Positions 2,420-62,695 of a DNA stretch of 64,000 nucleotides are shown in pieces. The notes under the pieces are model-generated. The model worked only from the letters and a program-made list of their open reading frames with translations, searched no databases and was not told the DNA's origin. Within the stretch, counting starts at the first letter, position 1. Every line of letters starts with the position of its first letter. The position numbers and the translations under genes are program-made. The DNA comes from Chryseobacterium gleum (GTDB lineage: Bacteria > Bacteroidota > Bacteroidia > Flavobacteriales > Flavobacteriaceae). The DNA lies in contig CAMCVI010000001.1 in assembly GCA_945881885.1 (NCBI GenBank), forward strand, positions 124,001 to 188,000. The letters are read 5' to 3'.

Positions 2420-2454
2420 GCTATAAGCAATAAGCTTACAGCATAAAGCAAGTA
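2420..2454. repeat. Heptameric degenerate tandem array GCTATAA GCAATAA GCTTACA GCATAAA GCAAGTA
   Basis: Five consecutive 7-mers starting with GC, filling the gap between the helicase stop codon and the next ATG. Confidence 0.7.
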
Positions 2455-2458
2455 AAAA

Positions 2459-3079
2459 ATGGCAGATTTTCTAAAAATATACGAAGACAAACCAAATGAA
2501 GCTGCTATAAAAAAAGTGGTTGATGTTCTAAGAAATGGTGGATTAGTTATTTATCCAACAGATACTGTTTATGGTATAGGTTGCGATATTACCAATTCTC
2601 GTGCGTTGGAAAGATTAGCTAAATTGAAAGGAATTAAACTGGAAAAAGCAAATTTTTCGTTTGTTTGTAGTAGTTTAAGTAATATTTCAGATTATGTAAA
2701 ACAAATTGATACGGCAACTTTTAAGATTTTAAAACGCGCGCTACCTGGGGCTTATACGTTTATTTTACCAGGTAATAACGATTTACCAAAAGACTTCCGT
2801 AAGAAAAAAACAGTCGGAATTCGAGTGCCAGATAATAACATTGCCATTCAAATTGTGGAAATGTTGGGGAATCCAATTGTTTCATCATCCATTCATGACG
2901 AAGATGACGTTATTGAATATTCCACCGATCCAGAATTAATTTTTGAGAAATGGCAAAATCTAGTCGATTTAGTAATTGATGGCGGTTACGGAGAAAATGT
3001 TGCATCAACCATTATCGATTTAACGGGACATGAACCAGTAATTGTGAGAGAAGGTAAAGGTGATGTGAATATTATTTAA
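2459..3079 (+). CDS. L-threonylcarbamoyladenylate synthase, Sua5/YciO/YrdC family
   Basis: 206 aa; GGLVIYPTDTVYGIGCD, KxxxFSFVCSSL and TVGIRVPD motifs. Confidence 0.9.
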   Translation: MADFLKIYEDKPNEAAIKKVVDVLRNGGLVIYPTDTVYGIGCDITNSRALERLAKLKGIKLEKANFSFVCSSLSNISDYVKQIDTATFKILKRALPGAYTFILPGNNDLPKDFRKKKTVGIRVPDNNIAIQIVEMLGNPIVSSSIHDEDDVIEYSTDPELIFEKWQNLVDLVIDGGYGENVASTIIDLTGHEPVIVREGKGDVNII

Positions 3080-3119
3080 AAATCAAATTCCAAATCGTAA
3101 ATCCAAAATCGTAAATTAC
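3078..3119. repeat. Heptameric array AAAAATC AAATTCC AAATCGT AAATCCA AAATCGT AAATTAC
   Basis: Six consecutive 7-mers of AAATNNN type spanning the convergent junction between the Sua5 and LysR stop codons. Confidence 0.8.
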
Positions 3120-4048
3120 TTCGGACTTATAATTTCCACATCGCTAAATGCGATTGCACCTCGAACTACACCTTGAATTGTTGTTTTTAACGCATCAATA
3201 ATATGAATTTTCAATTCGCTTTTAGAGAAAATTAAACTCACTTCTCTTGATGGTTTTGGACTGACAAACTGTTTTAGTTTGGTTTTGTTTTTTTCGTTTA
3301 AATCTATGGTATGTAAATAGGGTAGTAATGTTGTGCCTAAACCTTCATCGGATAATTTTATTAAAGTTTCAAAACTGCCACTTTCCAATTGAAAATGATT
3401 TTCACCAATAAAATTATTGGTTTTACATAAATTTAAAACACTATTTCTAAAACAATGTCCGTCTTGTAAAAGCAAGATTTTTTCGAAATCTAAATCGGCA
3501 ACTTCTATTTCTTTTTTTGCTTTATTTACACTATTTTCTGGAATATAAGCTACAAAAGGTTCGTAATATAATACAATTTCCTTAAGTTTTTCTTCATCTA
3601 AAGGCGTGGCGGCAATAGCGCAATCTAAATGACCATTTTTAAGTTTGGTAATAATGTCTGTAGTGTTTAATTCCTCTACAATTAGGTTTACCTTTGGATA
3701 CTTTTTAATGAAAGTATTCAAAAACATAGGTAACAAAGTTGGCATTACAGTTGGAATCATTCCAATGCGAAAATCGCCACCAATAAATCCTTTTTGTTGG
3801 TCAACAATATCTTTAATCCTGTTGGCTTCGTTAACTATGTTTTTGGCTTGTGTAACGATTTTACTTCCTACTTCTGTTAATCCAATTGGTTTTTTGGTTC
3901 TATCAAAAATTTGAATACCTAATTCGTCTTCTAATTTTTGAATTTGCATGCTTAATGTAGGCTGCGTAACAAAACATTTTTCGGCTGCTAATGTAAAATT
4001 TTTATTTTCGGCTACTGCTAAAACGTAATATAATTGGGTAATTGTCAT
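3116..4048 (-). CDS. LysR-family transcriptional regulator, OxyR-like
   Basis: 310 aa; N-terminal HTH MTITQLYYVLAVAENKNFTLAAEKCFVTQPTLSMQIQKLEDELG and substrate-binding domain. Confidence 0.92.
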   Translation of the reverse strand: MTITQLYYVLAVAENKNFTLAAEKCFVTQPTLSMQIQKLEDELGIQIFDRTKKPIGLTEVGSKIVTQAKNIVNEANRIKDIVDQQKGFIGGDFRIGMIPTVMPTLLPMFLNTFIKKYPKVNLIVEELNTTDIITKLKNGHLDCAIAATPLDEEKLKEIVLYYEPFVAYIPENSVNKAKKEIEVADLDFEKILLLQDGHCFRNSVLNLCKTNNFIGENHFQLESGSFETLIKLSDEGLGTTLLPYLHTIDLNEKNKTKLKQFVSPKPSREVSLIFSKSELKIHIIDALKTTIQGVVRGAIAFSDVEIISPK

Positions 4049-4117
4049 CGTATCAATATTTGTGATAAAAGTAAAAATTTCTATTGTAAAAAACTATTGT
4101 TTAAGAAAAGTTTATAA

Positions 4118-4146
4118 AAAAACTCTGAAAATAATCCAGAGTTTTT
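4118..4146 (-). terminator. Putative intrinsic terminator downstream of prfA
   Basis: AAAAACTCTG-loop-CAGAGTTTTT inverted repeat followed by a T tract on the minus strand. Confidence 0.6.
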
Positions 4147-4148
4147 AT

Positions 4149-4183
4149 AAATCATAAATGTCAAATTCCAAATCGTAAATTTG
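4149..4183. repeat. Heptameric array AAATCAT AAATGTC AAATTCC AAATCGT AAATTTG
   Basis: Five consecutive 7-mers abutting the prfA stop codon; shares a 20-bp identical core with the array at 3078-3119. Confidence 0.8.
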
Positions 4184-5257
4184 TTAATATACTTCGGATT
4201 CTTTTAATTTTTCTGTATTGGCAACTAACTGTAATTCATCAATAAATTTATGAATTTTTCCTGACATTACACCATCCATATCAAAAACATCAACACCAAT
4301 CCTGTGGTCGGTTACTCGGCCTTGTGGGTAATTGTAGGTTCTAATTTTAGCAGAACGGTCTCCTGAGCTAACTTGGGAAGTTCGTGTTATAGCATCTTCA
4401 GCTTGTTTTTTAGCTAGTTCTTGTTCGTATAAACGGGAACGTAAAACAGTTAAAGCTTTATCTTTATTTTTGTGTTGCGATTTTTGATCCTGACATTGCG
4501 CTACTAATCCTGAAGGAATGTGCGTTAATCTTACTGCCGATTTAGTAGTGTTTACTGATTGTCCACCAGGTCCTGAAGAACAGAAAAAATCCACACGAAC
4601 ATCATTCATGTCAATTTGCACATCAAATTCTTCTGCTTCCGGCAAAACCATTACAGTGGCTGCTGAGGTGTGCACACGACCTTGGGTTTCTGTTTGAGGA
4701 ACACGTTGTACGCGGTGTACGCCAGCTTCGTATTTTAAAGCACCATAAACATCTTCACCAGTAACTTCAAAAATTACCTCTTTAAATCCGCCAGACGTTC
4801 CATCACTCATATCAACTACAGAACATTTCCAACCACGACCTTCACAGTATTTAGTATACATTCTATATAAATCTCCAGCAAAAATAGACGCTTCATCTCC
4901 ACCAGTTCCTGCACGAATTTCAACCATTACGTTTTTCGCATCTTCTGGATCTTTAGGAATCAACATAAATTTGATTTCTTCTTCCAGTAAAGGCAAACGT
5001 TCCTTGGCTTCTTCTAATTGCATTTTTGCCATTTCTACCATTTCGGCATCAGAACCATCTGCAATTATTTCTTGGGCTTCTTTTACGTTAGCATCTAAAG
5101 TTATGTATTCTTCACGTTTTTTAACTAACGCATTTAAGCTTTTGTATTCTTGGTTTAATTGCACATAACGTTTCTGATCGGCAATTATATCAGGTTGAAT
5201 AATCAAATCTGATATTTCATCGAAACGTTGTTTTACATATTGTAATCTGTCTAACAT
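4184..5257 (-). CDS. prfA: Peptide chain release factor 1
   Basis: 357 aa; GGQSVN motif in [26 protein letters not shown]1 length and N-terminus. Confidence 0.96.
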
Positions 5258-5500
5258 GTCTTCTTATTTTGGATGGCAAAGTTACAAAAAAAAGTAATCT
5301 GTTATTTAGTTTATTGCGATTTGTAAAAATATGTTTTTAAATTGAATAGTACTAAACTCCTTTTCTGGATCAAAATATTTGATTTTTTTGTTTTTGAAGT
5401 ATTATTAAATAAAATGGTATTAAAATAAATGATATTATTTGTTAAAAATAAATTTATGATTTATCTTTGAGCAGAATTCACAAATAAAATTCCGGAAAAC

Positions 5501-5671
5501 ATGTTTGAATTTGACCAGTATTTAGGCTTTATACTTTTCTTAACCATTTTAACTATAGGTTTTTGGTTAATGTTTTTTCTTGTAGGTTTCGTTCCATATT
5601 GGATTGGCGGATCATTAAAAGAATTATACAAAGAGATGAAAGCAAAAAAATTAGCTGAACAAGAAAAGTAA
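5501..5671 (+). CDS. Small membrane protein, 56 aa, not in supplied ORF track
   Basis: ATG at 5501 to TAA; MFEFDQYLGFILFLTILTIGFWLMFFLVGFVPYWIGGSLKELYKEMKAKKLAEQEK; hydrophobic N-terminal half with charged tail; followed directly by a terminator. Confidence 0.65.
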   Translation: MFEFDQYLGFILFLTILTIGFWLMFFLVGFVPYWIGGSLKELYKEMKAKKLAEQEK

Positions 5672-5690
5672 TTTTCTTAGTTACAAAAAA

Positions 5691-5712
5691 TCCCGATTCG
5701 TACGAATCGGGA
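5691..5712. terminator. Bidirectional intrinsic terminator
   Basis: Perfect palindrome TCCCGATTCGTACGAATCGGGA flanked by A6 and T7, in a convergent junction. Confidence 0.85.
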
Positions 5713-5727
5713 TTTTTTTATTTTGTA

Positions 5728-8196
5728 TTAGTATTCTCCGCCGCCACCTTCTTGTTGTTCTAAACTCTTTTGTTTTATTTCCTTCTCGTTTTTCAGTTTA
5801 TTAAATCTATATGTAAATGAAACCGTTACTTGTCGTACTCTCCATTGCATTTCGCTATAAGAATTTACAGTAGGTAATCTTAAATCTTGAATTCTTTTTC
5901 TGGAATTAAACACGTCATTTACGTTGAATGCAACAGTAGCTTTATCTTTAAGTACATCTTTACTAAAAGCTAAATTCATACTAGCAATACCTATAGTTTT
6001 ACCTTGAGCTGTTTTTTGTCCGGCATTATAAGTTCCATTTGTTTGCCAATCAATTTTGTATGGTAAATTTACTTTAGAAGTTAATCTAGCTGTCCAAGTA
6101 CTTGATTTAAAATCAAAATCTTGATTAACTAACGTGTTATTAGAATTTATAAATTGATAATTTCCTTTGGTTTCATTATAAAAATAATTAACGTTTGAAT
6201 TTAACTTCCACCATTTTTTTAAGGCATAATTAAAAGTAACTTCCATTCCAATTCTATTGTCTTCACCTAAATTAAATGGTGTGTTAATAATTACCGGAAT
6301 TCCATTTATAAACTGACCGCTTTCTTTTCGAACTGTTTGGAAAGAATCAGTGGTATGATTATAATACGCAGAGGTACTAATTGTAGTTTTATCCCATTTT
6401 CTTAAATAGCCAATATCAAAAGCATCGGTAAATGACGGATTTAATTTTGGTTCTCCAACAAATAAATTGATATTACTAGTGTACGAAGAAAACGGATTAA
6501 TATACCTATCTCTAGGGCGGGTAATTCTTTTGCTATAGTTTATTGAAATGTTAGAATCGTTATTTAATTCGTATGTTAAAAATAAACTTGGAAAAAGGTT
6601 GTTGTAATTTCTAGAGTTTAAATCGTTTGTAAGCAACTGATTGATTTCTAAATTGGTGTTTTCAAATCGTAAACCTCCTAAAACGGATAATTTATTAAAA
6701 AATTTAGTTCCTAATTGTGTATAAATTGCACTTACGTTTTCAATATATTCAAAATTATTTGTAAAACCAGGTATGTTGGTGTAAGGGCTATTTTGATTGA
6801 CGCGCTCCAATACTTCATAATTACTAGTTGAATTTGTATAACTTCCTCTATAACCTGCCTCAAACTGTAGGTCTTTAGTTATTGGTAAAACGTAATCAGC
6901 TTGAATTAAATTTCTGGTTTGTCTACCAATTTTTGAGGTTTTTTCATCAGAAACAAATGTATTTGTTTCTAAAATACTTCCATAAATGTTAGAAAATTCA
7001 TCTTCTTCATTTAATGAAAATGAAGCATCGATAGTTAATTTATGACCATCTTTTTTAAATTTCTTTAAAAAGTTTGAGGTAAATTCAACTGCCTCATTTC
7101 TACTTAAAGATTCGTTGTCTCTGAAACGGGTGAATAAAAAGTTGCTTCTATTTAAAGTGTAATTTTTATAAGTTACATCTTCAAAATTTTCACCATCGTT
7201 GTTTCTATAATTGATACTATTGGTCCAAGTTGCCGATTTGTCTTTGTTTAGAAATATCTCCATTCCAAAATTACCATTGAAACCATTGCTAAATCTATTG
7301 GCTTTTCTGCGTTCTTCAATATAGGTATTGGCAGCAAAATTCTCTTGATTAATTTTGGTAATACCAGGATTGTTTCTATCATTATATGCTAATGTTGCAA
7401 ATAAATTATAAGTTTCTGATTTTGAATTAATATTTGCAGAAATACCCTGATTTTTAGGATCTCCAGCTGTTGCTATTACCGTTCCATTAATTCCTTTATT
7501 TTTCCCTTTTTTAAGAATTATATTCAAAATTCCACCCCCTCCTTCGGCATCGTAACGCGCGGATGGATTGGTAATTACTTCCACTTTTTCAATAGCGTCT
7601 GCGGGAAGCATTCTTAATGCATCTGCAACGTTTATGGCAGTTGAAGGTTTTCCGTCAATTAAAACGCGGACGCTTTCATTGCCACGAAGACTAATATTTC
7701 CTTCTACGTCTACTGAAACACTTGGTATGTTATCTAAAACATCGCTAACCGTTCCACCTTTTACCATTAAATCTTGGCCAACATTGTAAACTTTTTTGTC
7801 TAGTTTTATGTCAACTGAAGTTTTTTCGCTTCTAATTACAACCGTTTCAATTTGGTTTGACTCGGATACCAATAAAATATTTCCTAAATTGGTGTCTGAA
7901 TCTAAGCTTTGATTTACTTTTTCTTGAGTTTTGTATCCTGGAAATTCGAATTTTATGTTGTAAGTTCCGTTATTTAATTCGATATTAAAATTGCCATTTG
8001 CATCTGAAGTACCTCCAGTGATAACTTTTTTAGTATCTGATTTTGAGATGGTTATAATTGCAAATTCTACCGGAATAGAAGTTTCTTTATCAATAATTTT
8101 ACCAGAAATAAATACTTTTTTTAGGGAAATTTGAGAAATTGAGCTGGTACTAACCAATAAGAAAGTTAATAATAGCAATGATTTTTTTAATAGCAT
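5728..8196 (-). CDS. TonB-dependent receptor / outer membrane beta-barrel protein with carboxypeptidase-regulatory-like domain
   Basis: 822 aa; signal peptide, CarboxypepD-like N-terminal domain, plug motif (VSDVLDNIPSVSVD...SLRGNESVRVLIDGKPS), C-terminal barrel. Confidence 0.88.
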   Translation of the reverse strand: MLLKKSLLLLTFLLVSTSSISQISLKKVFISGKIIDKETSIPVEFAIITISKSDTKKVITGGTSDANGNFNIELNNGTYNIKFEFPGYKTQEKVNQSLDSDTNLGNILLVSESNQIETVVIRSEKTSVDIKLDKKVYNVGQDLMVKGGTVSDVLDNIPSVSVDVEGNISLRGNESVRVLIDGKPSTAINVADALRMLPADAIEKVEVITNPSARYDAEGGGGILNIILKKGKNKGINGTVIATAGDPKNQGISANINSKSETYNLFATLAYNDRNNPGITKINQENFAANTYIEERRKANRFSNGFNGNFGMEIFLNKDKSATWTNSINYRNNDGENFEDVTYKNYTLNRSNFLFTRFRDNESLSRNEAVEFTSNFLKKFKKDGHKLTIDASFSLNEEDEFSNIYGSILETNTFVSDEKTSKIGRQTRNLIQADYVLPITKDLQFEAGYRGSYTNSTSNYEVLERVNQNSPYTNIPGFTNNFEYIENVSAIYTQLGTKFFNKLSVLGGLRFENTNLEINQLLTNDLNSRNYNNLFPSLFLTYELNNDSNISINYSKRITRPRDRYINPFSSYTSNINLFVGEPKLNPSFTDAFDIGYLRKWDKTTISTSAYYNHTTDSFQTVRKESGQFINGIPVIINTPFNLGEDNRIGMEVTFNYALKKWWKLNSNVNYFYNETKGNYQFINSNNTLVNQDFDFKSSTWTARLTSKVNLPYKIDWQTNGTYNAGQKTAQGKTIGIASMNLAFSKDVLKDKATVAFNVNDVFNSRKRIQDLRLPTVNSYSEMQWRVRQVTVSFTYRFNKLKNEKEIKQKSLEQQEGGGGEY

Positions 8197-8269
8197 GGTG
8201 TATCACATTTTACAGTACAAATGTAGTGTTAAGTATTTTAAACGTTTATTAAAACTATGTTAAATGATT

Positions 8270-8611: not shown

Positions 8612-8668
8612 AAATATTTTTTTTACAAAGGTAATAATTGTAATTTAGTGCACTTAAAAAATCGTAAT

Positions 8669-12315: not shown

Positions 12316-12350
12316 TTTTAACTGATTACTTATAACTGAACACTACCAAC
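12316..12350. repeat. Heptameric array TTTTAAC TGATTAC TTATAAC TGAACAC TACCAAC
   Basis: Five consecutive 7-mers TNNNNAC/AAC running into the stop codon of the minus-strand carboxylase. Confidence 0.7.
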
Positions 12351-13981: not shown

Positions 13982-15711
13982 TTATAAGTCTAATTCGAAT
14001 GTTTGTCTAAATAATTCAATGTTAGGATTTAACTCCTTAAAATGTTTGTATTTTTCTTCGTTTGTGTAAATTACTTTGGGTTTGTAAGTTTCAATTACGG
14101 TAATTTTTATTTTAACATCGTAGTTGCGTAAATTGGTTTTTAAGTAGTTAATTAAATCTGAATTTGTATTTTCAAAATCTTCTTTAGAACCTTGGTTTGG
14201 AAATTCTAGCAAAATATTATTTCCCATTAAAACCGGTTTACTCAATCTCATGTAACTTGCAAACAACTTTTTTCCTTTGGTTTCTAGAATTTCAATGTAA
14301 TCGTCCCAATGTTTTATAGCGTCTTCCTGTGTGAAAGGATCTGCTAAACGTTCGCCAACAGCTAAATTTTCTGTTTTTGCTAAATTAGAAACATCTGCTT
14401 TTTGTTTCAATCCTTTAATAGATAATGATGAAACTCTGTTACTATTATCAATTGTAGGCGTATATTTTTGTTGAATTTGTTCGATTTTCACTTCCACTTT
14501 TTCTACCACCTTTGTAATTTCTTCTTGTGATATAGCTATTATTCCAGGTTCTGAAACAACTTGTGGTTGATTTGAAATAATTGAAGATGGAATTTCTTTC
14601 GATGATTGAAAGATATTTGATGGAATTATAAAGTATTTAGCTTTTTTTTTTCGGCATCATGTGTTAATGAAGCCAATTGCATTAGTGTAAGTTCTACAAA
14701 CAATCGTTGGTTTTGACTTACTTTGTATTTTAAATCACATTCATTTGCAATAGAAATCCCGTTTAATAAAAACTCTTGAGAAGCTTTTTGTGCCTGAACT
14801 GCAAATTCTTGTTGGGTTTGCTCACTGACTTCTAATAACGAAAGTGTTGCTGGATTTTTACAAACTAGTAAATCTCTAAAGTGCGAGGCCAAACCTGCAA
14901 TAAAATGATGTCCGTCAAATCCTTTTGCTAAAATATCGTTATAAGTTAAAAGCAATTTAGGGATGTCGTTTTCTAAAATTAAATCAGTAACTTTTATATA
15001 ATAATCGTAATCTAATACGTTTAGGTTTTCAGCTACAGCTTGGCGCGTTAAATTATTTCCACAATACGAAACTACTCTATCAAAAATAGACAAAGCATCT
15101 CGCATGGCGCCATCAGCTTTTTGCGAAATAATACGTAAAGCTTCTTCTTCATATTGCACATTTTGATTTTGAGCAATTTCCATTAAATATTCTTTTGTAT
15201 CGTTTACCGTAATTCGTTTAAAATCGAATATTTGACAACGCGACAATATAGTAGGAAGAATTTTATGCTTTTCGGTAGTTGCTAAAATAAAAATAGCATG
15301 TTTTGGTGGTTCTTCTAATGTTTTCAAAAACGCATTGAAAGCCGACGCAGAAAGCATATGCACCTCATCTATAATATATACTTTATAATTTCCGGTTTGC
15401 GGTGGTATTCTTACTTGGTCAATAATACTTCTAATATCATCAACACCATTATTAGATGCAGCATCTAATTCGAATACATTGAAAGAGAAATCCTCATTCG
15501 GATCATCGTAACCTTCTTGGTTGATTTTTCGGGCTAATATTCTGGCGCAAGTTGTTTTTCCGACACCACGAGGTCCGGTAAAAAGCAATGCTTGGGCTAA
15601 ATGATTATTTTCAATTGCATGCAACAAAGTATTAGTAATAGCAAGTTGCCCAATAACATCTTTAAATGTTTGAGGTCTGTACTTTCTGGCAGATACTATA
15701 AATTGTTCCAT
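13982..15711 (-). CDS. dnaX: DNA polymerase III subunit gamma/tau; two ORFs (14626-15711 and 13982-14640) joined by a -1 shift at an A10 run
   Basis: Frame-0 ORF has DnaX motifs (FTGPRGVGKTTCARILARKIN, SCASE-like region, TLEEPPKHAIFILATTE) and stops 5 codons after A10 (+ strand T10 at 14642-14651). The -1 frame continues in frame through KAKYFIIPSNIFQSSKEIPSS... into the 13982-14509 ORF, giving about 576 aa. Confidence 0.85.
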
Positions 15712-15740
15712 ATTAAAATATTGATAGCAAATATAGATTT

Positions 15741-15775
15741 AAAATGTGAAAAGTCAAAAGTGAAAAGTGAAAAGT
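15741..15775. repeat. Heptameric array AAAATGT GAAAAGT CAAAAGT GAAAAGT GAAAAGT
   Basis: Five consecutive 7-mers upstream of dnaX. Confidence 0.8.
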
Positions 15776-15920
15776 TATTAAGAATTTATATCGTATCAGC
15801 TTACACTATAGATTGAATAAATTATGTAAATTTTAAAAACTTCTTCAATATGTATTTCTATAAATAATTCAGAAAAACATTTTAATTATAAAAAATGCCC
15901 AATTTAAATTACCTTTGCCA

Positions 15921-16225
15921 AGCAGACCGCCTTATCGCTCCGATTCATCGGGGAGGAAAGTCCGGACACCAAAGAGAAGCATAGCGGGTAACGCCCGTCT
16001 GCCGATAATTATCGGTAAGGACAAGTGCAACAGAAAGTATGTACAGGTTAAGCTGTAGTGAAACCAGGTAAACTCTATGCGGTGAAATTTCAAGTATATC
16101 AGCATTTAAGGGTTTCTCGTCCGTTGTTGAAGGGTAGAAAGATGGATTCCGCGAGTAATTTCGGAACTAGATAAATGATAAGGCTCCGATTTTATTGGAG
16201 ACAGAATCCGGCTTACAGGTCTGCT
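15921..16225 (+). ncRNA. rnpB: RNase P RNA, bacterial class A
   Basis: GAGGAAAGTCCGGACACC, conserved ACAGAATCCGGCTTACAGG, terminal P1 pairing AGCAGACC/GGTCTGCT, followed by T6. Confidence 0.93.
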
Positions 16226-16337
16226 TTTTTTAAGAATTGTTAATAATTAAAATGAAATAAATTAATATCTTTTTACGACTTAACCTTTAGTTAATATTAG
16301 AGTGTTAATTTCGCATTGAATTTTAATAATAACAAAA

Positions 16338-21314: not shown

Positions 21315-21317
21315 ATT

Positions 21318-21402
21318 TCGACCTGTTAAACTTTTAAACTCGACCTGTCGAGTTGTTTAATTCGACCTGTTAAGTTTTACAACTCGACAGGTCGAATTTT
21401 TT
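21318..21402. repeat. 22-bp-period TCGAC(C/A)(T/G)GT array with terminal hairpin
   Basis: TCGAC units at 21318, 21340, 21362 and 21384, exactly 22 bp apart; the fourth is inverted to the second over 16 bp and followed by T7. Confidence 0.8.
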
Positions 21403-22556: not shown

Positions 22557-23582
22557 ATGGAAATTAATTTATTCAGCGATACGGTTACCAAGCCCACTCC
22601 AGAAATGTTACAATTTATGTTTAACGCGAAAGTGGGTGATGATGTTTTTAAACAAGATCCGACAGTTAATGAATTGGAAGCGTCTTTAGCTGATTTATTT
22701 GGTAAAGAAGCAGCTTTGTTTTTTCCTTCCGGTACGATGGCAAATCAAACCGCGATAAAATTACACACCAATCCGGGTGACGAATTAATTTGCGATAAAT
22801 GGGGACACGTATTTTTATACGAAGCGGGTGGAGTAGCTTTTAACAGCGGTGTTTCGTGTAATTTAATTGATGGAAACCGAGGTATGATTACAGCAGAACA
22901 AGTAGAAAATGCAATACACGATCCTGAATTTTATCACGCGCCAATGACAAAGTTAGTATGTGTAGAAAACACTACAAACAAAGGTGGCGGCGCTTGTTAT
23001 GATATAGAAGAATTAAAAAAAATAAAAGAAGTTTGCACAAAACATAATTTAAAATACCATTTAGACGGCGCCAGACTTTGGAATGCTTTAGTTGCAAAAA
23101 AACAACATCCAAAAATGTATGGCGAATTGTTTGATACCATTTCTCTTTGTCTATCAAAAGGTTTAGGTGCGCCAGTTGGTTCTGTTTTGTTAGGCACAAA
23201 AGAAGACATGAAACGCGCGCTTCGAATAAGAAAAATATTTGGTGGCGGTATGCGTCAAGCAGGTTATTTAGCTGCGGCTGGAATGTATGCGTTACAAAAT
23301 AACATCACTCGCTTAGAAGAAGACCATAAAAAAGCTAAAGAATTAGGAAGTGTTTTAGAAACGCTACCTTTTATTTATAAAGTAGAACCTATTGAAACCA
23401 ATATTGTTATTTTTAAACTGAAAAGTGATGTCAATGAAACGCAGTTTATTGATAAACTAAAAGAGAAAAATATCAATATTAGCAATATGGGTCAAGGTAA
23501 ATTACGAATGGTTACTCACTTGGATTACAAGCAAGTAATGCACGATTATGTAATGGAAACATTGCGTAAAATTAGTTTTTGA
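22557..23582 (+). CDS. Threonine aldolase family protein (PLP-dependent)
   Basis: MEINLFSDTVTKPTPEMLQFM start; LDGARLWNA and LCLSKGLGAPVGSVL PLP lysine region; track start at 22482 overlaps prfB and is unlikely. Confidence 0.92.
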   Translation: MEINLFSDTVTKPTPEMLQFMFNAKVGDDVFKQDPTVNELEASLADLFGKEAALFFPSGTMANQTAIKLHTNPGDELICDKWGHVFLYEAGGVAFNSGVSCNLIDGNRGMITAEQVENAIHDPEFYHAPMTKLVCVENTTNKGGGACYDIEELKKIKEVCTKHNLKYHLDGARLWNALVAKKQHPKMYGELFDTISLCLSKGLGAPVGSVLLGTKEDMKRALRIRKIFGGGMRQAGYLAAAGMYALQNNITRLEEDHKKAKELGSVLETLPFIYKVEPIETNIVIFKLKSDVNETQFIDKLKEKNINISNMGQGKLRMVTHLDYKQVMHDYVMETLRKISF

Positions 23583-23790
23583 TAGGTACGCAGATTTTAC
23601 AGATTTTACGGGTTCACGCAAATTGATCTTTTAAAACTGTTGAATATGTTATTTAAATTAGTTTTTAAATAGGTACGCTGATTTTACAGATTTTACGGGT
23701 TCACGCAAATTGGTCTTTTAAAACTGTTGAATATGTAATTTAAATTTGTTTTTAAATAGGTACGCTGTTTTTTACAGATTTTGTCGATTT
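23583..23790. repeat. 87-bp tandem repeat, about 2.4 copies
   Basis: TAGGTACGC starts at 23583, 23670 and 23757 (87-bp spacing); units 1 and 2 differ at about 4 positions. Confidence 0.92.
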
Positions 23791-32112: not shown

Positions 32113-33426
32113 TTGACTTTGAGTACAAAAAAAGTTTTAATCATCTCGTATTATTGGCCGCCAGCAGGTGGACCAGGCGTGCAGCGTTGGTTAAAATTTG
32201 TGAAGTATTTACCTGATTTTGATATCGAACCTATCGTATATATTCCAGAGAATCCTAGTTACCCATTACTTGATGAAAAATTACTTTCCGATGTTTCTGA
32301 TAAAACGATAATTCTCAAAAACAAAATTTTTGAACCGTATGCTTTGGCTTCATTTTTATCGAAAAACAAAACAAAGAAATTAGGTGCTGGTATCATTACA
32401 CAAAAGAAAAAGCAATCGATTATTGAAAAAATAATGCTTTGGATTCGTGGAAATGTTTTCATACCAGATGCTCGCGTTTTTTGGGTGAAACCTTCGGTGA
32501 AATATTTAAAAAAATATATTCAAGAAAACAATATTGAAACCATTATAACAACAGGTCCGCCACATAGTTTGCATTTAATTGGCTTAGATTTAAAAAAGCA
32601 ACTCAACGTAAATTGGATAGCTGATTTACGGGATCCGTGGACGACTATTGGTTATCACAAAGAGCTAAAATTATCACAGTGGGCGAGTACCAAACATAAA
32701 GCTTTAGAAAAAGAAGTTTTGACTACTTGTGATACCATTTTAGTGACTTCACCAACCACAAAATTAGAATTCGAACGTCTTACAAATCAACCCATTGAAG
32801 TGATTACAAATGGTTATGATGTGGAACAAATTGAAAAAAAGCAGTTAGACAAAAACTTTACATTGGCACATATTGGTTCGTTTTTATCGGAAAGAAATCC
32901 GAAAATTTTATGGGAATCTTTATCGGAATTAATCCATGAAAATGAGGCTTTTGCAATCCATTTTAAATTAAAATTAATTGGAGCAGTTAGCAAAGAAGTT
33001 TTGCAATCCATTTCAGAAAATAAATTAGATAATTTTGTTCAAAATTTAGGTTATGTTTCGCACAAAGAAGCCTTAATGCATCAAAGAATTTCGCAAGTAT
33101 TATTATTAATTGAAATTGATTCGGATGACACAAAATGTATCATTCCAGGAAAACTTTTTGAATATATGGTTTCAGAAAGACCTATTTTAGCCATCGGACC
33201 GAAAAACTCCGATTTTGAAAATATCATAAAACAGACAAATACAGGTGTTTTTTATCAATATAACGAGAAAAACGAGCTAAAAAGTCAAATTTTAAGCTAT
33301 TTTAATCAATATTTGGATAACAGCTTAAAAGTAAATGCAGTCGGTTTACAAAAATATAGTAGAAAAAACTTGACTGAACAATTAGCAATTACAATGTCAA
33401 AATTCAATAGCAAAAAACAATATTAA
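32113..33426 (+). CDS. Glycosyltransferase, group 1/family 4-like, TTG start
   Basis: 437 aa; YYWPPAGGPGVQRWLKF, C-terminal IPGKLFEYMVSERPILAIGP. Confidence 0.85.
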   Translation: MTLSTKKVLIISYYWPPAGGPGVQRWLKFVKYLPDFDIEPIVYIPENPSYPLLDEKLLSDVSDKTIILKNKIFEPYALASFLSKNKTKKLGAGIITQKKKQSIIEKIMLWIRGNVFIPDARVFWVKPSVKYLKKYIQENNIETIITTGPPHSLHLIGLDLKKQLNVNWIADLRDPWTTIGYHKELKLSQWASTKHKALEKEVLTTCDTILVTSPTTKLEFERLTNQPIEVITNGYDVEQIEKKQLDKNFTLAHIGSFLSERNPKILWESLSELIHENEAFAIHFKLKLIGAVSKEVLQSISENKLDNFVQNLGYVSHKEALMHQRISQVLLLIEIDSDDTKCIIPGKLFEYMVSERPILAIGPKNSDFENIIKQTNTGVFYQYNEKNELKSQILSYFNQYLDNSLKVNAVGLQKYSRKNLTEQLAITMSKFNSKKQY

Positions 33427-33472
33427 AATTAAAAATCAAAATTCTAAAATTCTAAAAATCTAACAATCTAAA
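33425..33472. repeat. Octameric array AAAATTAA AAATCAAA ATTCTAAA ATTCTAAA AATCTAAC AATCTAAA
   Basis: Six consecutive 8-mers filling the gap up to the flippase start codon. Confidence 0.75.
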
Positions 33473-33473
33473 A

Positions 33474-34952
33474 ATGGGTATCGTAATCAAACAATCTATT
33501 AAAAACACCATCATTACTTTCATTGGTTTTGTTATTGGTGCGATTAATTTTTTGTACATGTATCCTGTTTTTTTAGGTAAAGAATATTTAGGGTTGACCA
33601 ATTATATATTATCTGCAGCAAGTATTTTGTATCCAATAATGTCATTCGGTATTCAAAATACATTAATTAAATTTTTTAATGAAAATAATAAATCGGAAGC
33701 TGAGTTAAGTAGGTACATTAGTTACATGCTTTTGCTACCATTGCTCATAATTATTCCATTTTTTGCTTTGTTTTATTTTTTTTATGTAAACATTGCTTTG
33801 TATGAATCTGCAAAGAATAGTATTGTTTATGATTTTGTTTGGGAAATTCCAATAATCGCTTTATTTATTGGTTATTTTGAAATTTTTTATGCTTGGTTGC
33901 GCGCACACATGAAATCAGTTTTTGGTTCATTTGTAAAAGAAGTTTTGGTTAGAATTTTAGTAACTATTTCACTTTTTGCTGTTTATTTTAAATTCATAAC
34001 ATTACCACAATTTGTTCATTCTTTGGTTTTGGTATATGGGATTAGTTTATTTGTAATAATTTATTACGCAAATAAGGTTAAACGCATTCAACTAAATAAA
34101 AAATTTCCAAAAAATACGAAGTCCATTTTCGTATTCACTATTTTAATTCTTTTTTCCGCTAGTGTAGCCAATATGCTATTAGATATTGATAAATACATGA
34201 TAAATCAGTTTTTAAAAATTGAAAATATTGCATTTTATTCAATGGCGGTTTATTTGGCAATGGTAATTTCGGTTCCCCAAAGGGCGATGCATCAAATTAC
34301 CTATCCAATAACGGCCAAATTAATTAGCGAAAACAAATGGCAAGAATTAAATGAATTATATAAAAAATCGTCTGTAACACTTCAAGTAATTGGCGGTTTA
34401 ATTTACATTGGCATTTTGGTAAACATCAATCAAGTTTATAAAATTTTGCCTAATGAAGGTTATGATCAAGGATTGTTTGTTGTTTTTACAATTGGTTTAT
34501 CAAAATATTTTGATGTGATTTTAGGTAATAATAATGCTATTATTTTTAATTCAAAATATTACAAAACGGTTTTGCTTTTAGGTGTTTTATTGGTTTTTGT
34601 AATCGTAGGATTAAATTTAATTTTCATACCAAAATACGGCATAAACGGAGCGGCTTTGGCAACTTTAATAGCCATTGGAATGTACAGTTTGGCCAAATTA
34701 TTGTTCGTGGTTTTTAAAATGAAATTATTTCCGTTTACTAAAAACACTATAATTTCATTTGTCATCACTTTAGTGTTGTTTTTTGCATTTTATTTTTGGG
34801 AATTTCCTTTTCATCCGATAATTAATATTGTCTTAAAATCGCTGCTCATTTCAGTTATATATTTGGCATTACATTTCTATTTCAAAGTCTCTAGCGATAT
34901 CAATTTTGTGATTAGAAATTTGCTAGGTAAGTTTTTTAAAGTAAAAAGTTAA
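33474..34952 (+). CDS. Polysaccharide biosynthesis / Wzx-like flippase (MOP superfamily)
   Basis: 492 aa; 12+ TM; GKEYLGLTNYILSAASILYPIMSFG. Confidence 0.82.
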   Translation: MGIVIKQSIKNTIITFIGFVIGAINFLYMYPVFLGKEYLGLTNYILSAASILYPIMSFGIQNTLIKFFNENNKSEAELSRYISYMLLLPLLIIIPFFALFYFFYVNIALYESAKNSIVYDFVWEIPIIALFIGYFEIFYAWLRAHMKSVFGSFVKEVLVRILVTISLFAVYFKFITLPQFVHSLVLVYGISLFVIIYYANKVKRIQLNKKFPKNTKSIFVFTILILFSASVANMLLDIDKYMINQFLKIENIAFYSMAVYLAMVISVPQRAMHQITYPITAKLISENKWQELNELYKKSSVTLQVIGGLIYIGILVNINQVYKILPNEGYDQGLFVVFTIGLSKYFDVILGNNNAIIFNSKYYKTVLLLGVLLVFVIVGLNLIFIPKYGINGAALATLIAIGMYSLAKLLFVVFKMKLFPFTKNTIISFVITLVLFFAFYFWEFPFHPIINIVLKSLLISVIYLALHFYFKVSSDINFVIRNLLGKFFKVKS

Positions 34953-49000: not shown

Positions 49001-49026
49001 AGACGAATTCGTCAGTTACGAAGTAA
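46015..49026 (+). CDS. Large tetratricopeptide-repeat protein
   Basis: Signal peptide MNGIKTLFLALLFVSQIIMAQ; many TPR-like helices; start at 46015 fits the promoter and signal peptide. Confidence 0.85.
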   Translation: MNGIKTLFLALLFVSQIIMAQQSAIYLNQNPEYHKAIQLYKEKQFQAAQILFERVKNPAQSEEIISDCDYFIANCAIKTNQQDADALMESFIENHPTSTKRNLAYFEVAQYYFAEGNYTQSLKWYDNIYEPELAVSDMEKANFQRGYANFSIKKNKDASNYLNKVLQSVEYGNQAKYYLGYLAYEGDNYKLANELFGQVENQDKYKEKMGYFQADMNFKLGNFQKAIDLGEPQLKKSSAIEKSELSKIIGESYFNLKQYDKAIPYLQAYKGKNGKWNHTDFYQLGYAFYQQKNYESAILQFNKIIEGNDFLAQNAYYHLAESYLNTDKKQQALNAFKTASEMDFDAKIQEDAALNYTKLSYEIGNPYVSTPEILKSFMDKYPTNPNNPELKSLLINSFITSKNYTEALILLEKNKAPENKLAYQKVAFYRGLEVYTDGKYQDAYVLFKKSLTENKDAKIFARATFWKAECEYSLDQFSEAVLTYKQFLNAAIASETPESKTANYNLAYAYFKIKEYENAIPQFNAFISVSKDDKVRLTDAYLRMADCNYISSKYWPAIEAYNKAIELKSVDSDYAAFQKGMSYGFVNKNEKKIEDLNKFVTNYKTSQFMDDALYELANTYTVEEQNDKAIAAFDVLINQHKNSAYIAKSILKQGLIFYNTDKDDAAIIKFKKVVAEFPNSAESLEAVSTAKSIYKANGNIPEYAAWVKTLSFVEVSDAELDNDMYESAEKKYLTNNAKQAVSGFTSYLVQFPNGLHALKVHFYLAQLYFADALEKNAISHYEYVIAQARNEFTEQALVRLAEIYLKDNNCDLAIEVLIQLESAAEYPQNTTFAQANLMKCYYEKQDFTKSELYSDKVLNNQKIDDNIKSDAQIIVARSAIKTNNDAKAKEAYAKLQKIAKGELAAEALYYEAYFKNKEGKFDASNKAVEKYSSTYSGYKYFGAKSLLVMAKNYYGLKDSFQATEILQSIIDNFSEFPDVVSECQSELETIKAEEAKTNSSVTK

Positions 49027-49062
49027 GTGTTAAGTAAAAAAGTAAAAAGGCAAAAGTAAAAA
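49027..49062. repeat. Heptameric array GTGTTAA GTAAAAA (a) GTAAAAA GGCAAAA GTAAAAA
   Basis: Five 7-mers with one inserted A, immediately after the TPR gene stop codon. Confidence 0.6.
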
Positions 49063-49130
49063 GAACCAAAACATTGCGAACCTTGCGAAAACCTTAGTGT
49101 AGTGTCTTTGCGGTTAAAATAAAAACATAT

Positions 49131-55086: not shown

Positions 55087-55090
55087 AAAA

Positions 55091-55115
55091 AAGTTCCATC
55101 TAAAAGATGGAACTT
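55091..55115. terminator. Bidirectional intrinsic terminator
   Basis: AAGTTCCATC-TAAAA-GATGGAACTT flanked by A and T runs, convergent genes. Confidence 0.85.
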
Positions 55116-55132
55116 TTTTTTAAAACTTTGAT

Positions 55133-55855: not shown

Positions 55856-55884
55856 ATTCTCAATTTTTATTTAAAATAAGTAAT

Positions 55885-58737: not shown

Positions 58738-58795
58738 AATTACAATTTTTTACTTCAATTGTAAGACAGAAATAGGTTTAGTTTTTATTAAGTTT

Positions 58796-59125
58796 TTATT
58801 TTTTCAAGATTTTTTCATCTACAAAATTAGCAATAAAACCTAATTTCATTCTATGTAGCATTTTCTTTTCAAAATTCCAAAAGAAAGTAAATTGTCCGAA
58901 AAGAAATCCAATAAAAACAAGTAAAACTTGATAAATAGGGAAAATTAACACCAATCTTAAAACGCGATACAACCAATGCGGTTGAAAGGTTTCGGGAATT
59001 CCAATTAATGAAAGGAAAGGTTTTGCGACTTGTAATGAACTGAAACCCGTAATAGCAAAAACAATCAAAATGCTTGCTAATTGCCAGTTACTAGAAATAT
59101 TCCAACGTTTTTTTAACCTATTCAT
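58796..59125 (-). CDS. Small membrane protein (DUF6787-like)
   Basis: 109 aa; two TMs, IGFLFGQFTFFWNFEKKMLHR. Confidence 0.65.
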   Translation of the reverse strand: MNRLKKRWNISSNWQLASILIVFAITGFSSLQVAKPFLSLIGIPETFQPHWLYRVLRLVLIFPIYQVLLVFIGFLFGQFTFFWNFEKKMLHRMKLGFIANFVDEKILKK

Positions 59126-59213
59126 TTTTTAAAATTTATCGGGATAAAGATAAAAAAAAGTCCCGAAAACCTGAACTAAATTTTATTTTTGGTAAACATA
59201 TTGGCTATTTGAA

Positions 59214-60170
59214 CTATTTGTTTTTCAATAAACTAATAATTTGTTCAGCTAATTCGGTACCAATTCTGTCTTGCGCTTCTAATGTTGCCGCACCAATATG
59301 AGGTGTTAATGAAATTTTTGGTTGCATTAATATTTGAACTTCTGGAGTTGGCTCGTTTTCAAACACATCTAAACCAGCAAATAATACTTTTCCGTTATCA
59401 ATAGCTTCAATTAAAGCGACTTCATTAATCACGCCACCACGAGCACAATTTACAATGCCCACTTCATTTTTCATCATTTTAAATTCAGCTTTGTCTAAAA
59501 CATAACCGTCTTGTGCAGGCACGTGAAGTGTAATAAAGTCTGAATGTTTTAATACATCTTCAAAAGGTTCTGTAATAATGTCAACATTTATAAATTGCCC
59601 ATTGTAAAAATCAACTCTAATTACAGCTTCATTAATATATTTATCAACCGCAATTACTTTCATTCCAATTCCTAAAGCTAATTTTGCCACCGCTTGACCA
59701 ATTCTTCCGAATCCAATAATACCAATGGTTTTTCCTCTTAATTCTAAACCATTAGCGTATGCTTTTTTTAATCCATCGAAATTGGTATCGCCTTCTAAAG
59801 GCATATTTCTGTTGGCATCATGTAAAAATCTAACGCCAGAAAATAAATGTGCAAAAACCAATTCGGCCACACTTTCAGACGAAGATGCTGGCGTATTTAT
59901 AACATGAATTCCTTTTGATCGCGCATATTCTACATCAATATTATCCATTCCAACACCGCCACGACCAATAATTTTTAATCCTGGACAGGCATCAATAATG
60001 TCTTGTTTTACTTTTGTAGCACTTCTTACCAAAATTACTTGTACATCATTTGCATTGATATAATTGGCTACTTGTTCTTGTGCTACTTTTGTGGTAATCA
60101 CTTCAAATCCTGCTTGTTCTAATGTGGTGATTCCACTTTTTGAAATTCCGTCGTTTGCTAATACTTTCAT
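59214..60170 (-). CDS. serA: D-2-hydroxyacid dehydrogenase (3-phosphoglycerate dehydrogenase-like)
   Basis: 318 aa; [37 protein letters not shown]; adjacent to serC. Confidence 0.88.
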
Positions 60171-60198
60171 TTATGAGTTTATTGTTTACAGTTTATTG
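60171..60198. repeat. Heptameric array TTATGAG TTTATTG TTTACAG TTTATTG exactly filling the serC-serA spacer
   Basis: 28 nt = 4 x 7 between the serC stop codon and the serA start codon. Confidence 0.8.
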
Positions 60199-61269
60199 TT
60201 AAATTGTTTTCTCTAATTCTATCATTACATCAACCAAAACTTGAACACTTTCTAATGGAAGCGCATTATACATAGAAGCACGATAGCCACCAACAGAACG
60301 GTGTCCAGTTAAACCAGATATTCCTGCAGCTTTCCACATCGCATCAAACTTTTCTGTTAAGCTTTCGTCTGTTAATACAAATGTTGCATTCATTATGCTT
60401 CGGTCTTCTATTGCTGCCGTTCCTTTAAATAAAGGGTTTCTGTCAATTTCTGAATATAGCAAATGTGCTTTTTCATTATTTATTTTTTCAATTGCTGCAA
60501 TGCCACCCAAATTTTTCAACCATTGTAAGGTTAACAATGAAGCATAAACAGGAAATACAGGCGGCGTATTGTACATACTTTCTGCTTTTATATGTTTTTC
60601 ATAATCCAACATACTTGGAATGTAACGTCCTGTTTTTCCTAAAATTTCTTCTTTTATAATTACCAATGTAGTTCCAGCTGGACCCATATTTTTTTGTGCA
60701 CCCGCATAAATAATATCAAATTGAGAAAAATCTAATGTTCTTGAAAAAATATCCGAACTCATATCGCAAACTACTGGCACATTTGTTTTTGGAAATGATT
60801 TCATTTGGGTTCCAAAAATCGTATTGTTACTGGTACAGTGAAAATAATTAGCATCAGCAGGAATTTCAATATTTTTCGGAATAAAATTATAATTCGCTTC
60901 TTTGGAAGAACCAACAACTAAGGTTTCCCCGAAATGTTTGGCTTCTTGTATGGCATTGTTTGCCCAAGTTCCTGTATCTAAATACGCAGCTTTTCCTTCA
61001 GATTTCATTAAGTTGTAAGGCACCATTAAAAATTCTAAACTCGCACCGCCAGCCAAAAATAAAGCTTGATATCCTTTGTTTTCTAATCCTAAAAGTTCTA
61101 ATGCTAAAGCGCGAGCTTCATACATTACAGCAACAAAATCCTTACTTCTGTGCGATATTTCTAATAAAGATAAATCGGAATTATTAAAATTTAAAATGGC
61201 TTGAGCTGATTTTTCAAATACTTCTTGAGGCAAAATACAAGGTCCTGCGCTATAATTGTGTTTTTTCAT
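60199..61269 (-). CDS. serC: 3-phosphoserine/phosphohydroxythreonine transaminase
   Basis: MKKHNYSAGPCILPQEVFEKSAQAILNF; FDIIYAGAQKNMGPAG; start at 61269 preferred. Confidence 0.95.
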   Translation of the reverse strand: MKKHNYSAGPCILPQEVFEKSAQAILNFNNSDLSLLEISHRSKDFVAVMYEARALALELLGLENKGYQALFLAGGASLEFLMVPYNLMKSEGKAAYLDTGTWANNAIQEAKHFGETLVVGSSKEANYNFIPKNIEIPADANYFHCTSNNTIFGTQMKSFPKTNVPVVCDMSSDIFSRTLDFSQFDIIYAGAQKNMGPAGTTLVIIKEEILGKTGRYIPSMLDYEKHIKAESMYNTPPVFPVYASLLTLQWLKNLGGIAAIEKINNEKAHLLYSEIDRNPLFKGTAAIEDRSIMNATFVLTDESLTEKFDAMWKAAGISGLTGHRSVGGYRASMYNALPLESVQVLVDVMIELEKTI

Positions 61270-61375
61270 GATGTAAGTTATAGTTTTATACAAATTTGAG
61301 GTTTTTAGAAAAACTGCCCAAAATTAAATAATTAAAATTGAAACGAATTATTAACAATATCGATTTCGAAACCAA

Positions 61376-61501
61376 TTACTTTTTTTTAGCGTTTTTTCTA
61401 TTTGAATTCACTTTTGCTTCCAAATTAAATTTAGGTTGGTGTTTGTGCACTTCTTTTTCCTTTTGTGCTTTGATAATAGTACTAATTTTTGAAACTGACA
61501 T
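61376..61501 (-). CDS. 41-aa basic lysine-rich small protein, not in supplied ORF track
   Basis: MSVSKISTIIKAQKEKEVHKHQPKFNLEAKVNSNRKNAKKK; start 1 nt after the upstream acyl-CoA reductase stop, same strand. Confidence 0.5.
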   Translation of the reverse strand: MSVSKISTIIKAQKEKEVHKHQPKFNLEAKVNSNRKNAKKK

Positions 61502-61502
61502 T

Positions 61503-62561
61503 TTATAAATTATTTAGAAAATCTAAAGTATCTACTTTGTCTGCATAGTCCCATAAATTTGGTTTTTGAGTATTTCCAAAATAAACTGAATTTTCAATAA
61601 TTCCGTTCGAAACTACACATTGAATGATTTCTGAATCTTGATTTAAACGCGTTTTAATTTCATTTATATCTTCGTAATATTCATAAAAAACAGAAGAAAT
61701 AGGCGAGGCATGACTGATGTCTTCCTTTATGGTTAAAAATTCGTTATCTAACAATTGAAAATTACTCATTAAAAACACCGCTTTATTATAATCGTAATTA
61801 TTAGCGTATTTCTCGTAATAAATCACGTCTTTTTGAGCGTACATTCCGTTAAAAAACGCATCGAAATTATAGTTTTTAGGCACAAATATTTTAGAAACAT
61901 TGCGGCAACCTAATCCAAAATATCTAAAAACATCTTCGCTTAATAAAGTCATTTCTTCAGATGTTTCATTTCCTGTTAAAACAGCGACTGAATTTCTACT
62001 TTTTCTAATAATGGAAGGTTTGTTTTTAAAGTAATATTCAAAATATCTTGCAGTATTGTTACTTCCAGTTGCAATAACGGCATCAAAATTTTCTAATTTA
62101 CCTTCAACAAAAGTTATTTTTTCATTAAATCGATTGTCTAAAGCAATTAAATATTTGGTTAGAAATTTAATTAAATAATCGTCTTTACTTGATGTTTTAA
62201 CCAAAACATTATTTCCTGAAATTAATACGGATAAAAAATCGTGAAAACCTACTAACGGTATATTTCCGGCTAATATTAAACCCACATTTTTAGTTTCTTT
62301 TTCAGTAAAACTGTAAGCAGAAAGCCACTGATTTATGTTATTTTCAGTTAATGCTTCAGACCAACTTGAAATACTAAAATGAACATTATCAGGCGTAAAC
62401 CAATTGTTATGCGATTGCGACAATGCGATTAAATCTATAAACGAGTTAAAAAACAAATCATTATATTTTACTTGCTCATTTTGTTGATTATTGTCAATAG
62501 AAAACTGGCTTAAAAACTTTCCTAATTCAACAAAATTATTTTTTATTTCAATTTGTAACAT
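61503..62561 (-). CDS. Acyl-CoA reductase (LuxC-like)
   Basis: 352 aa; NVGLILAGNIPLVGFHDFLSVLISGNNVLVKTSSKD, GLGCRNVSKIFVP. Confidence 0.88.
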   Translation of the reverse strand: MLQIEIKNNFVELGKFLSQFSIDNNQQNEQVKYNDLFFNSFIDLIALSQSHNNWFTPDNVHFSISSWSEALTENNINQWLSAYSFTEKETKNVGLILAGNIPLVGFHDFLSVLISGNNVLVKTSSKDDYLIKFLTKYLIALDNRFNEKITFVEGKLENFDAVIATGSNNTARYFEYYFKNKPSIIRKSRNSVAVLTGNETSEEMTLLSEDVFRYFGLGCRNVSKIFVPKNYNFDAFFNGMYAQKDVIYYEKYANNYDYNKAVFLMSNFQLLDNEFLTIKEDISHASPISSVFYEYYEDINEIKTRLNQDSEIIQCVVSNGIIENSVYFGNTQKPNLWDYADKVDTLDFLNNL

Positions 62562-62568
62562 GTGTAAC

Positions 62569-62599
62569 TTGTTTATATTTAGTTAACGTTGTATTTTTG
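62569..62599 (+). promoter_or_regulatory. Bacteroidota-type promoter TTG-N20-TATTTTTG for ferredoxin
   Basis: TTG at 62569-62571, TATTTTTG at 62592-62599; implies a roughly 90-nt leader. Confidence 0.5.
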
Positions 62600-62619
62600 C
62601 ACAAAATTAATATAATATG

Positions 62620-62695
62620 TCGAAAGTCTAACGTCTTAAAGTAAAAAGATTTGCGGCATTTGACATTATGACTTTTCAACATTAAGACAAAATAA
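62620..62695. repeat. Two short-period mini-arrays in the ferredoxin leader
   Basis: TCGAAAG TCTAACG TCTTAAAG TAAAAAG (62620-62648), then CATTATGA CTTTTCAA CATTAAGA CAAAATAA (62664-62695). Confidence 0.55.

Follow-up and report, generated by a model that had tools for sequence, protein, structure and literature searches.

What are the short tandem repeats that fill gaps between genes in a 64,000-nt stretch of a Bacteroidota genome, and what holds their unit at seven nucleotides when the sequence of the unit differs from gap to gap? The stretch, called the window below, is positions 124,001 to 188,000 of contig CAMCVI010000001.1 (C1:124001-188000) in a 2.03-Mb, 34-contig genome whose genus, by named loci and kinship, is Flavobacterium. 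A sequence-only reading of the window had listed ten such arrays and suggested a poorly characterised class in Bacteroidota, an assignment that survives with Flavobacterium as the genus. The genome does carry a class of arrays with a fixed period and a free unit sequence (here, the word). They stand at gene ends with a set polarity, many gaps hold two inverted arms with one word, and at orthologous junctions, only some of which are occupied, the word switches between species with both arms changing together. The sequence-only reading did not include the inverted arms of matching word, the run from G-rich to C-rich, or the switching of words at orthologous junctions.

The class was measured over contigs C1-C18 (1.884 Mb, 92.6% of the genome), with genes called by our own hexamer model (1512 genes, 88% coding) and with shuffles that preserve dinucleotides only as the null. 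In the lag autocorrelation of gaps of up to 600 nt, period 7 stands highest over the shuffles (z 15), and periods 8, 6, 14 and 21 are also high. Counting local arrays with a score of at least 11 gives 114 intergenic arrays of period 7 against 7.6 in shuffled sequence, about 15-fold, and 40 of period 8 against 6.8, which bears out the earlier claim that period 7 makes up the main class and period 8 a smaller one. Periods 2-6 and 9-13 are at or near chance, and the leftover excess lies at the multiples 14, 16, 21 and 28, so that the array class is specific to 7, then 8. Arrays reach a density of 0.64/kb in intergenic DNA and 0.017/kb in coding sequence, about 40 times lower. The 120 counted array occurrences of the genome use 57 distinct consensus words, among them TCTATAC, GTGAAAA, AAATCGT/AAATCCC, ACCCAAC, GGTAAAG and TTAGCTG. 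Some arrays are perfect, for example GGTAAAG at C7:15538; the majority are degenerate, and neighbouring arrays may change word yet keep the step.

Arrays lie close to genes, with a median distance to the nearest gene end of 5 nt compared with 22.5 nt for random placement within the same gaps. The earlier description of differing words, placement at gene ends and absence from reading frames holds for the class as a whole. Arrays also have a direction. Read toward the adjoining gene, they contain C at 0.23 and G at 0.04 at 5' ends, and C at 0.19 and G at 0.07 at 3' ends, compared with C at 0.11-0.13 and G at 0.09-0.12 at array-free gene ends. Because arrays are C-rich and G-poor toward the gene at both ends, gaps have the G-rich arm first and the C-rich arm second: left-half arrays have more G than C by 35 to 7, and right-half arrays more C than G by 44 to 18. 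The polarity is 21:2 in convergent gaps, 48:19 in tandem gaps and 10:4 in divergent gaps; where genes lie in tandem, it is less marked at their 3' ends. A G-quadruplex interpretation was rejected, since most words carry isolated Gs. The earlier suggestion of an operon spacer or a 3' untranslated region (UTR) element fared unevenly: a spacer fits some junctions, such as clpP-clpX, where a hairpin is kept across the genus, but a simple 3' UTR element does not fit because arrays also stand at 5' ends with their orientation mirrored.

Gaps with two arms are numerous; GGGTTTA...ACCCAAA at C1:232370-232451 and TTTAGCA...GCTAAAA at C6:23471-23534 are examples, and both fold into stems of short helices with small internal loops. 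Compared in inverted orientation, the arms of one gap have a similarity of 4.16, against 3.50 when arms are swapped between gaps (standard deviation, sd, 0.12). In direct orientation they do not match beyond the null (3.43 against 3.39), and copying of arms in the same orientation was rejected on that ground. A loose two-arm definition takes in 60 of the 673 gaps of 40-160 nt, and it also admits ordinary terminators. Terminators likewise explain why array-free gaps exceed the swap null when 5-mer sharing between the halves of a gap is counted, and this measure was dropped as proof of pairing; the evidence for pairing is therefore the unit-level arm test together with the cross-species arm swap at clpP-clpX. 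In several convergent gaps a conventional terminator hairpin stands beside the array and separate from it.

The junction between clpP and clpX allows one site to be followed across species. The two genes are adjacent throughout the genus, with a gap of usually 65-90 nt, and in most species this gap carries two inverted arms of heptads or octads. The words differ: GGGT/ACCC in the source genome, TTAGTGA/TCACTAA in G092, CAGT in G101, and elsewhere GTTTCAG, GTTTAAG, AAAGTCA, CAGATNN, TAGTTGA, AGTGTTC and AAGTTGC. The first G falls a median of 5 nt after the clpP stop, and the last C of the 3' arm 8 nt before the clpX start. Among 60 species the median fold z is -5.1, with 80% below -2. Summed period scores are 886 against 43 in shuffles for period 7 and 357 against 47 for period 8; period 6 is raised (117 against 47), the remaining periods are near or below the shuffles, and the best period is 7 or 8 in 49 of the 60 junctions. 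The arms share 8.29 5-mers within a species and 2.76 when swapped between species (sd 0.4), a match that reads as covariation at one orthologous site.

Words at this junction change over short distances. The close relative G092, which was compared at clpP-clpX only, has a clpX with 91.6% nucleotide identity (79% at third positions), yet another word, and the sister loci L196 and L205 carry GGGT and TTAGTGA. On a clpPX tree, ten word classes, assigned by hand, require at least 21 changes compared with 29.95 for shuffled labels; the words are inherited, yet often replaced and recurrent. The hairpins do not have the form of intrinsic terminators, since an A-rich stretch, and not a T run, lies between the stem and the clpX start. 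A search of 20 clpX loci against Rfam at gathering score gave no match over the clpP-clpX hairpin. The only matches lie outside the junction and are Flavo-1 RNAs and a DUF805 RNA (L182:416-559, L194:522-667 and L180:3442-3509). Upstream of clpP, many Flavobacterium loci have one-armed arrays that contain C and are poor in G (AACTCAT, AAACTTT), with no G-rich partner, and that reach to within a few nt of the clpP start codon. The clpP of one contig in the comparison (L223), filed as a Bdellovibrio metagenome-assembled genome, is of Flavobacterium type (87% to the query), and the contig falls within Flavobacterium in the clpPX tree; it is a probable mis-binning.

Other junctions differ in how often they are occupied. 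Among 11 junctions with at least 10 species each, three are occupied in 33-53% of species and the rest in 0-17%, and occupancy is heterogeneous over the nine junctions with room for arrays (p 3e-7). Between a NAD kinase-like and a CBS-domain-like gene (nadK-CBS; these names, and atpG, atpA and mnmG-like below, are our own reading of the sequences), octad hairpins occur in one clade (L221-L234), and the gap is 2-13 nt in other species. Words are replaced here too: the atpG-atpA junction has GGGT in the source genome compared with AGTGAAA in G010, and replacement at the same junction also occurs at C6:23471. At C8:50845-50967 a heptad hairpin lies between an mnmG-like gene and a parS-like site, GTTCCACGTGAAAC; G010 keeps this site but lacks the hairpin. 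By our own estimate, two species did not share an occupied junction more often than by chance in the stretches compared.

The excess over shuffles recurs across the genus and, patchily, across the order; the sequence-only reading had said that its absence would count against the class. Among same-genus genomes, period 7 is in excess in G012 (8 against 0.4) and G013 (6 against 0), weakly so in G010 and not in G018. Pooled 20-kb loci from 36 genomes that are named Flavobacterium or near it, counted with the clp junction excluded, give 24 against 1.8 for period 7 and 12 against 0.6 for period 8. The 44 other Flavobacteriales loci show no excess (1 against 2.0), from which a distribution limited to the genus was at one point drawn. 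This was corrected by a five-unit ACT heptad pattern, which matches 61 of 118 genomes of the order and 29 of 48 genera, other families included, with a maximum of 213 matches in one genome, and is without a match in many small genomes. A reversed control of the pattern, which keeps period 7, scores in many genomes too, consistent with a free vocabulary. The distribution across the order is patchy and not limited to the genus. The genomes G019 and G117, from another family of the order, have 213 and 200 ACT-heptad matches, compared with 28 in the source genome.

How such arrays arise can be approached from three of these results. The lock on 7 nt combined with free words suggests the step size of a mutational process, the matched inverted arms suggest fold-back template switching, and junction-specific retention with strong stems at clpP-clpX suggests selection on the stem there. 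The reading we favour, which we hold tentatively and at somewhat less than even confidence, is that slippage in steps of 7 or 8 nt and fold-back template switching build the arms, and that some junctions retain a transcribed hairpin. A mutational process that acts again and again on the intergenic DNA of Flavobacterium would produce tandem copies whose step is 7 or, less often, 8 nt, and fold-back template switching would copy the repeats inverted, giving a G-rich arm and then a C-rich arm of one word. Repeated slippage and fold-back copying would keep the arms alike while the word drifts or is replaced as a unit, so that perfect arrays of recent origin stand next to older, degenerate arrays. 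Coding sequence would be closed to arrays, so that they stop at gene boundaries, and most copies would probably be tolerated. At clpP-clpX, the best shown case, a transcribed stem-loop would be retained. Its most likely role is that of a cistron-boundary element, separating or protecting segments of the mRNA, and selection would favour the stem itself whatever its sequence. The polymerase mechanism, the transcription of the hairpins and their function in mRNA are what we infer from these patterns. Both processes have precedents: polymerase slippage has been put forward as the cause of the preference for heptamers (Mrazek et al., cited in PMC4679880), and template switching has been published as creating and maintaining hairpins (PMC8794818). 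Slippage or templated amplification was already the origin proposed in the sequence-only reading, and it survives as an interpretation.

Several observations weigh against this combination of slippage, fold-back copying and retained stems. Many arrays are one-armed, and in tandem gaps a fold z below -3 is only slightly more frequent with arrays (24%) than without (17%). The hairpin is dispensable at nadK-CBS, because the gap shrinks to a few nucleotides in some species. Slippage alone leaves the G-first polarity unexplained; that polarity agrees with G-poor leaders at 5' ends, and convergent ends may follow a bidirectional hairpin logic. Finally, distant clades have some words in common, and the movement of cassettes would account for this as well.

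Dispersed hairpin cassettes are a serious rival, if on balance an improbable one. Here the inverted heptad pairs would be small, non-autonomous mobile or recombining elements of the REP/REPIN kind, with the heptads as their internal structure, and they would insert at gene boundaries and be swapped between loci and species. In line with this, the 66-nt hairpin found at C7:18494-18565 is matched at 91% identity by a possible dispersed copy at C7:128055-128118 (within the region C7:127866-128119), many partial copies span the loop, and AGTGTTC, GTTTAAG, AAAGTCA and CAGT reappear at clpP-clpX in separate clades. The source genome and other species have 16 words in common against 9.6 in a letter-permuted null (null maximum 18), and there is full presence or absence at nadK-CBS and at C8:50845. 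However, neither a Y1 (RAYT-type) transposase, with no match to PF01797, nor a reverse transcriptase was found in the source genome (G000), G092, G101 or G012. Unit numbers and words vary inside one element, and the heptad step also occurs in one-armed arrays that are not hairpins. Words similar to those of the 66-nt hairpin stand at clpP-clpX in L192 and L235.

Sequence-specific regulation is harder to sustain, and we consider it quite unlikely as the general explanation. Each word would be a repeated binding site, in a 5' or 3' UTR, for a cold-shock protein, S1 or another RNA-binding protein. C-containing, G-poor arrays do stand directly upstream of starts, including the clpP leaders of several species, and CspB is reported to bind heptamer direct repeats with one protein per heptamer (PMC4679880). 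But 57 words in one genome and a complete change of word at an orthologous junction exclude one conserved binding sequence, and the arms are mirrored at 3' ends.

Scars of double-strand-break repair, in which ends resected to the gene boundary are extended by repeat synthesis and joined like fused telomeres, would account for arrays that abut genes and for a G-rich strand that runs outward from both flanking genes regardless of their direction. We regard them as very improbable: no Ku homologue was found in any of the 8 genomes tested, the source genome showed no reverse transcriptase, and independent extension of two ends would not yield matched words in both arms. Ku, Y1 transposase and reverse transcriptase (RVT_1) were all without a match in the source genome, which removes the simplest end-joining, RAYT and reverse-transcription models. 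Chance periodicity of AT-rich spacer DNA, which several individual window arrays do not exceed, is refuted as a general explanation by the genome-wide excess at 7 and 8, and not at other basic periods, and by its repetition in independent genomes.

It has long been recognised that, among the longer repeats of bacterial genomes, those with a heptanucleotide unit form the most abundant class, and we know of no accepted reason for this. In the present system period, position, strand polarity and pairing are preserved and the sequence can vary, so that the mechanism becomes separable from the sequence and the question of why seven becomes testable; the clpP-clpX junction supplies natural replicates by the dozen. 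Should selection be what maintains the stem, the junction carries an RNA element hidden from ordinary alignment-based discovery, since even close relatives differ in both arms. Should mutation be solely responsible, fold-back copying creates hairpins and imitates covariation, which would be a caution for covariation-based RNA discovery.

Parts of this picture have been described elsewhere. Rehm et al. (2015) reported GGGAATC and GGGGA(T/C)T heptamers in Xanthomonas and Nostoc, in intergenic arrays of about four units near gene ends, with the G-rich strand non-coding upstream and coding downstream of open reading frames (ORFs), with length and sequence varying between species, and with 70 and 75 convergent inverted pairs in two Xanthomonas genomes (PMC4692102). 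The Flavobacterium arrays share the 7-nt intergenic unit, the closeness to ORFs, the polarity of the G strand and the convergent inverted pairs. They differ in that the Xanthomonas and Nostoc arrays use one fixed G-rich word (GGGANTN) per genome, with quadruplex potential, whereas the source genome alone has 57 words, many with a single G per unit (the commonest being AAATCGT), and the class includes an 8-nt subclass and word switching at orthologous junctions. MacGregor (2015) described TAACTGA direct repeats in Beggiatoaceae, Cyanobacteria and five Bacteroidetes, proposed as regulatory binding sites in Beggiatoaceae; the Gramella and Aequorivita sets stand among other heptamer repeats (PMC4679880). 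These too are 7-nt, intergenic and upstream of starts, with one set reversed after a stop codon, but the system has a single word and is mostly one-armed, and hairpins and word turnover are not described in the available part of that paper. TAACTGA is not the consensus word of the leading arrays in the source genome, where related ACTGAAC words occur.

The comparison with the heptanucleotide repeats of cyanobacteria, drawn in the sequence-only reading, survives in the shared period. The STRR repeats of heterocystous cyanobacteria and the class of 5-11-nt long simple sequence repeats (Mrazek et al. 2007, as cited in PMC4679880 and PMC4692102) likewise have a 7-nt excess and a slippage explanation, but as described in those citing papers STRR families have fixed words in near-perfect tandem, unlike the degenerate, variable units and inverted arm pairs of Flavobacterium. 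In template-switch hairpins (Monttinen and Loytynoja 2022, PMC8794818) both arms also change together by arm-from-arm copying; that work concerns RNA genes, and its abstract has neither a 7-nt step nor tandem amplification. REP/REPIN elements are similar as dispersed intergenic inverted repeats that fold into hairpins, and differ from the heptads in lacking heptad structure and a variable word and in the Y1/RAYT transposase, which was not found in the source genome. The literature searched, which did not extend to subscription papers, yielded no description of the class in Flavobacterium. Polarised heptamer arrays are known, and the variable vocabulary and word switching are new. It is possible, though doubtful, that one general, so far unrecognised process in Flavobacteriales, Xanthomonas, Nostoc and Beggiatoaceae writes polarised arrays of 7-nt step outward from gene ends, mirrored into hairpins and free in word, and that the stem at certain operon junctions is an RNA element under selection, which keeps its structure through complete replacements of its sequence.

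In the window, each array was compared by the best local lag score in its intergenic region with 500 dinucleotide shuffles of that region; paired p values below refer to the claimed period and then to any period from 5 to 12.

15737-15775, minus strand: period-7 array AAAAGTG/AAAAGTC, score 21.0, reached by 0/500 shuffles at the claimed period and 0/500 over periods 5-12.
33425-33475, plus strand: period-8 array AAAATTCT AAAATTCT AAAAATCT AACAATCT, score 21.6, reached by 0/500 and 0/500 shuffles.
3080-3119, unstranded: period-7 array AAATCNN, p 0.002 and 0.044.
2419-2458, unstranded: degenerate GCNNNNA heptads, p 0.004 and 0.04.
60171-60198, unstranded: TTTATTG-type heptads, p 0.01 and 0.048.
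49027-49063, unstranded: AAAAAGT-type array of mixed 7- and 8-nt units, p 0.022 and 0.078.
4147-4183, unstranded: degenerate AAATNNN array, p 0.054 and 0.234, alone not significant.
12316-12349, unstranded: claimed TNNNNAC array, p 0.056 and 0.36, alone at chance level, with fitting polarity.
62620-62648 (within 62620-62695), unstranded: claimed period-7 array, p 0.068 and 0.39, unsupported.
62664-62695 (within 62620-62695), unstranded: claimed period-8 array, p 0.32 and 0.94, not an array.

Of the ten arrays originally listed, two are beyond doubt (listed at 15741-15775 and 33425-33472), three are borderline (2420, 3078 and 60171), one is weak (49027), one is supported by its word only (4149), and the three at 12316, 62620 and 62664 are at chance and unsupported. 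Tandem Repeats Finder marks 3092-3116, 15742-15775, 33425-33475 (period 8, 6.6 copies) and 49032-49063 (at periods 7 and 8).

The strongest heptad array of the window, 15737-15775, is upstream of the minus-strand gene 14626-15711, at a distance of 25 nt from its start. Read toward that left-hand gene its word is ACTTTTC, C-rich inward and free of G as the polarity rule predicts, and the word is found again in other gaps of the genome. The period-8 array at 33425-33475 occupies the whole 47-nt gap between two plus-strand genes and ends at the next start codon. The 3080-3119 array occupies a 36-nt convergent gap and is directed into the stop of the minus-strand gene; its word AAATCGT is the genome's commonest, with 9 arrays. 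The 4147-4183 array, which adjoins the stop of the minus-strand gene 4184-5257, has the words AAATTCC and AAATCGT and the placement rule in common with it. The 2419-2458 heptads occupy a gap between two plus-strand genes, and those at 60171-60198 a 28-nt gap between two minus-strand genes. The 49027-49063 array begins right after the stop of the plus-strand gene ending at 49026, with its G-containing strand running outward.

An Rfam search of the window at gathering score gave nothing over the arrays; its only match is a bacterial RNase P class A RNA at 15919-16231 on the plus strand, which shares a gap with the 15737-15775 array. The window also contains two intergenic tandem repeats of a different kind from the heptads, one with a unit of 87 nt at 23569-23782 (2.5 copies, 93% matches) and one with a unit of 44 nt at 21317-21402, which includes TCGACCTGTTAAACTTTTAAAC.

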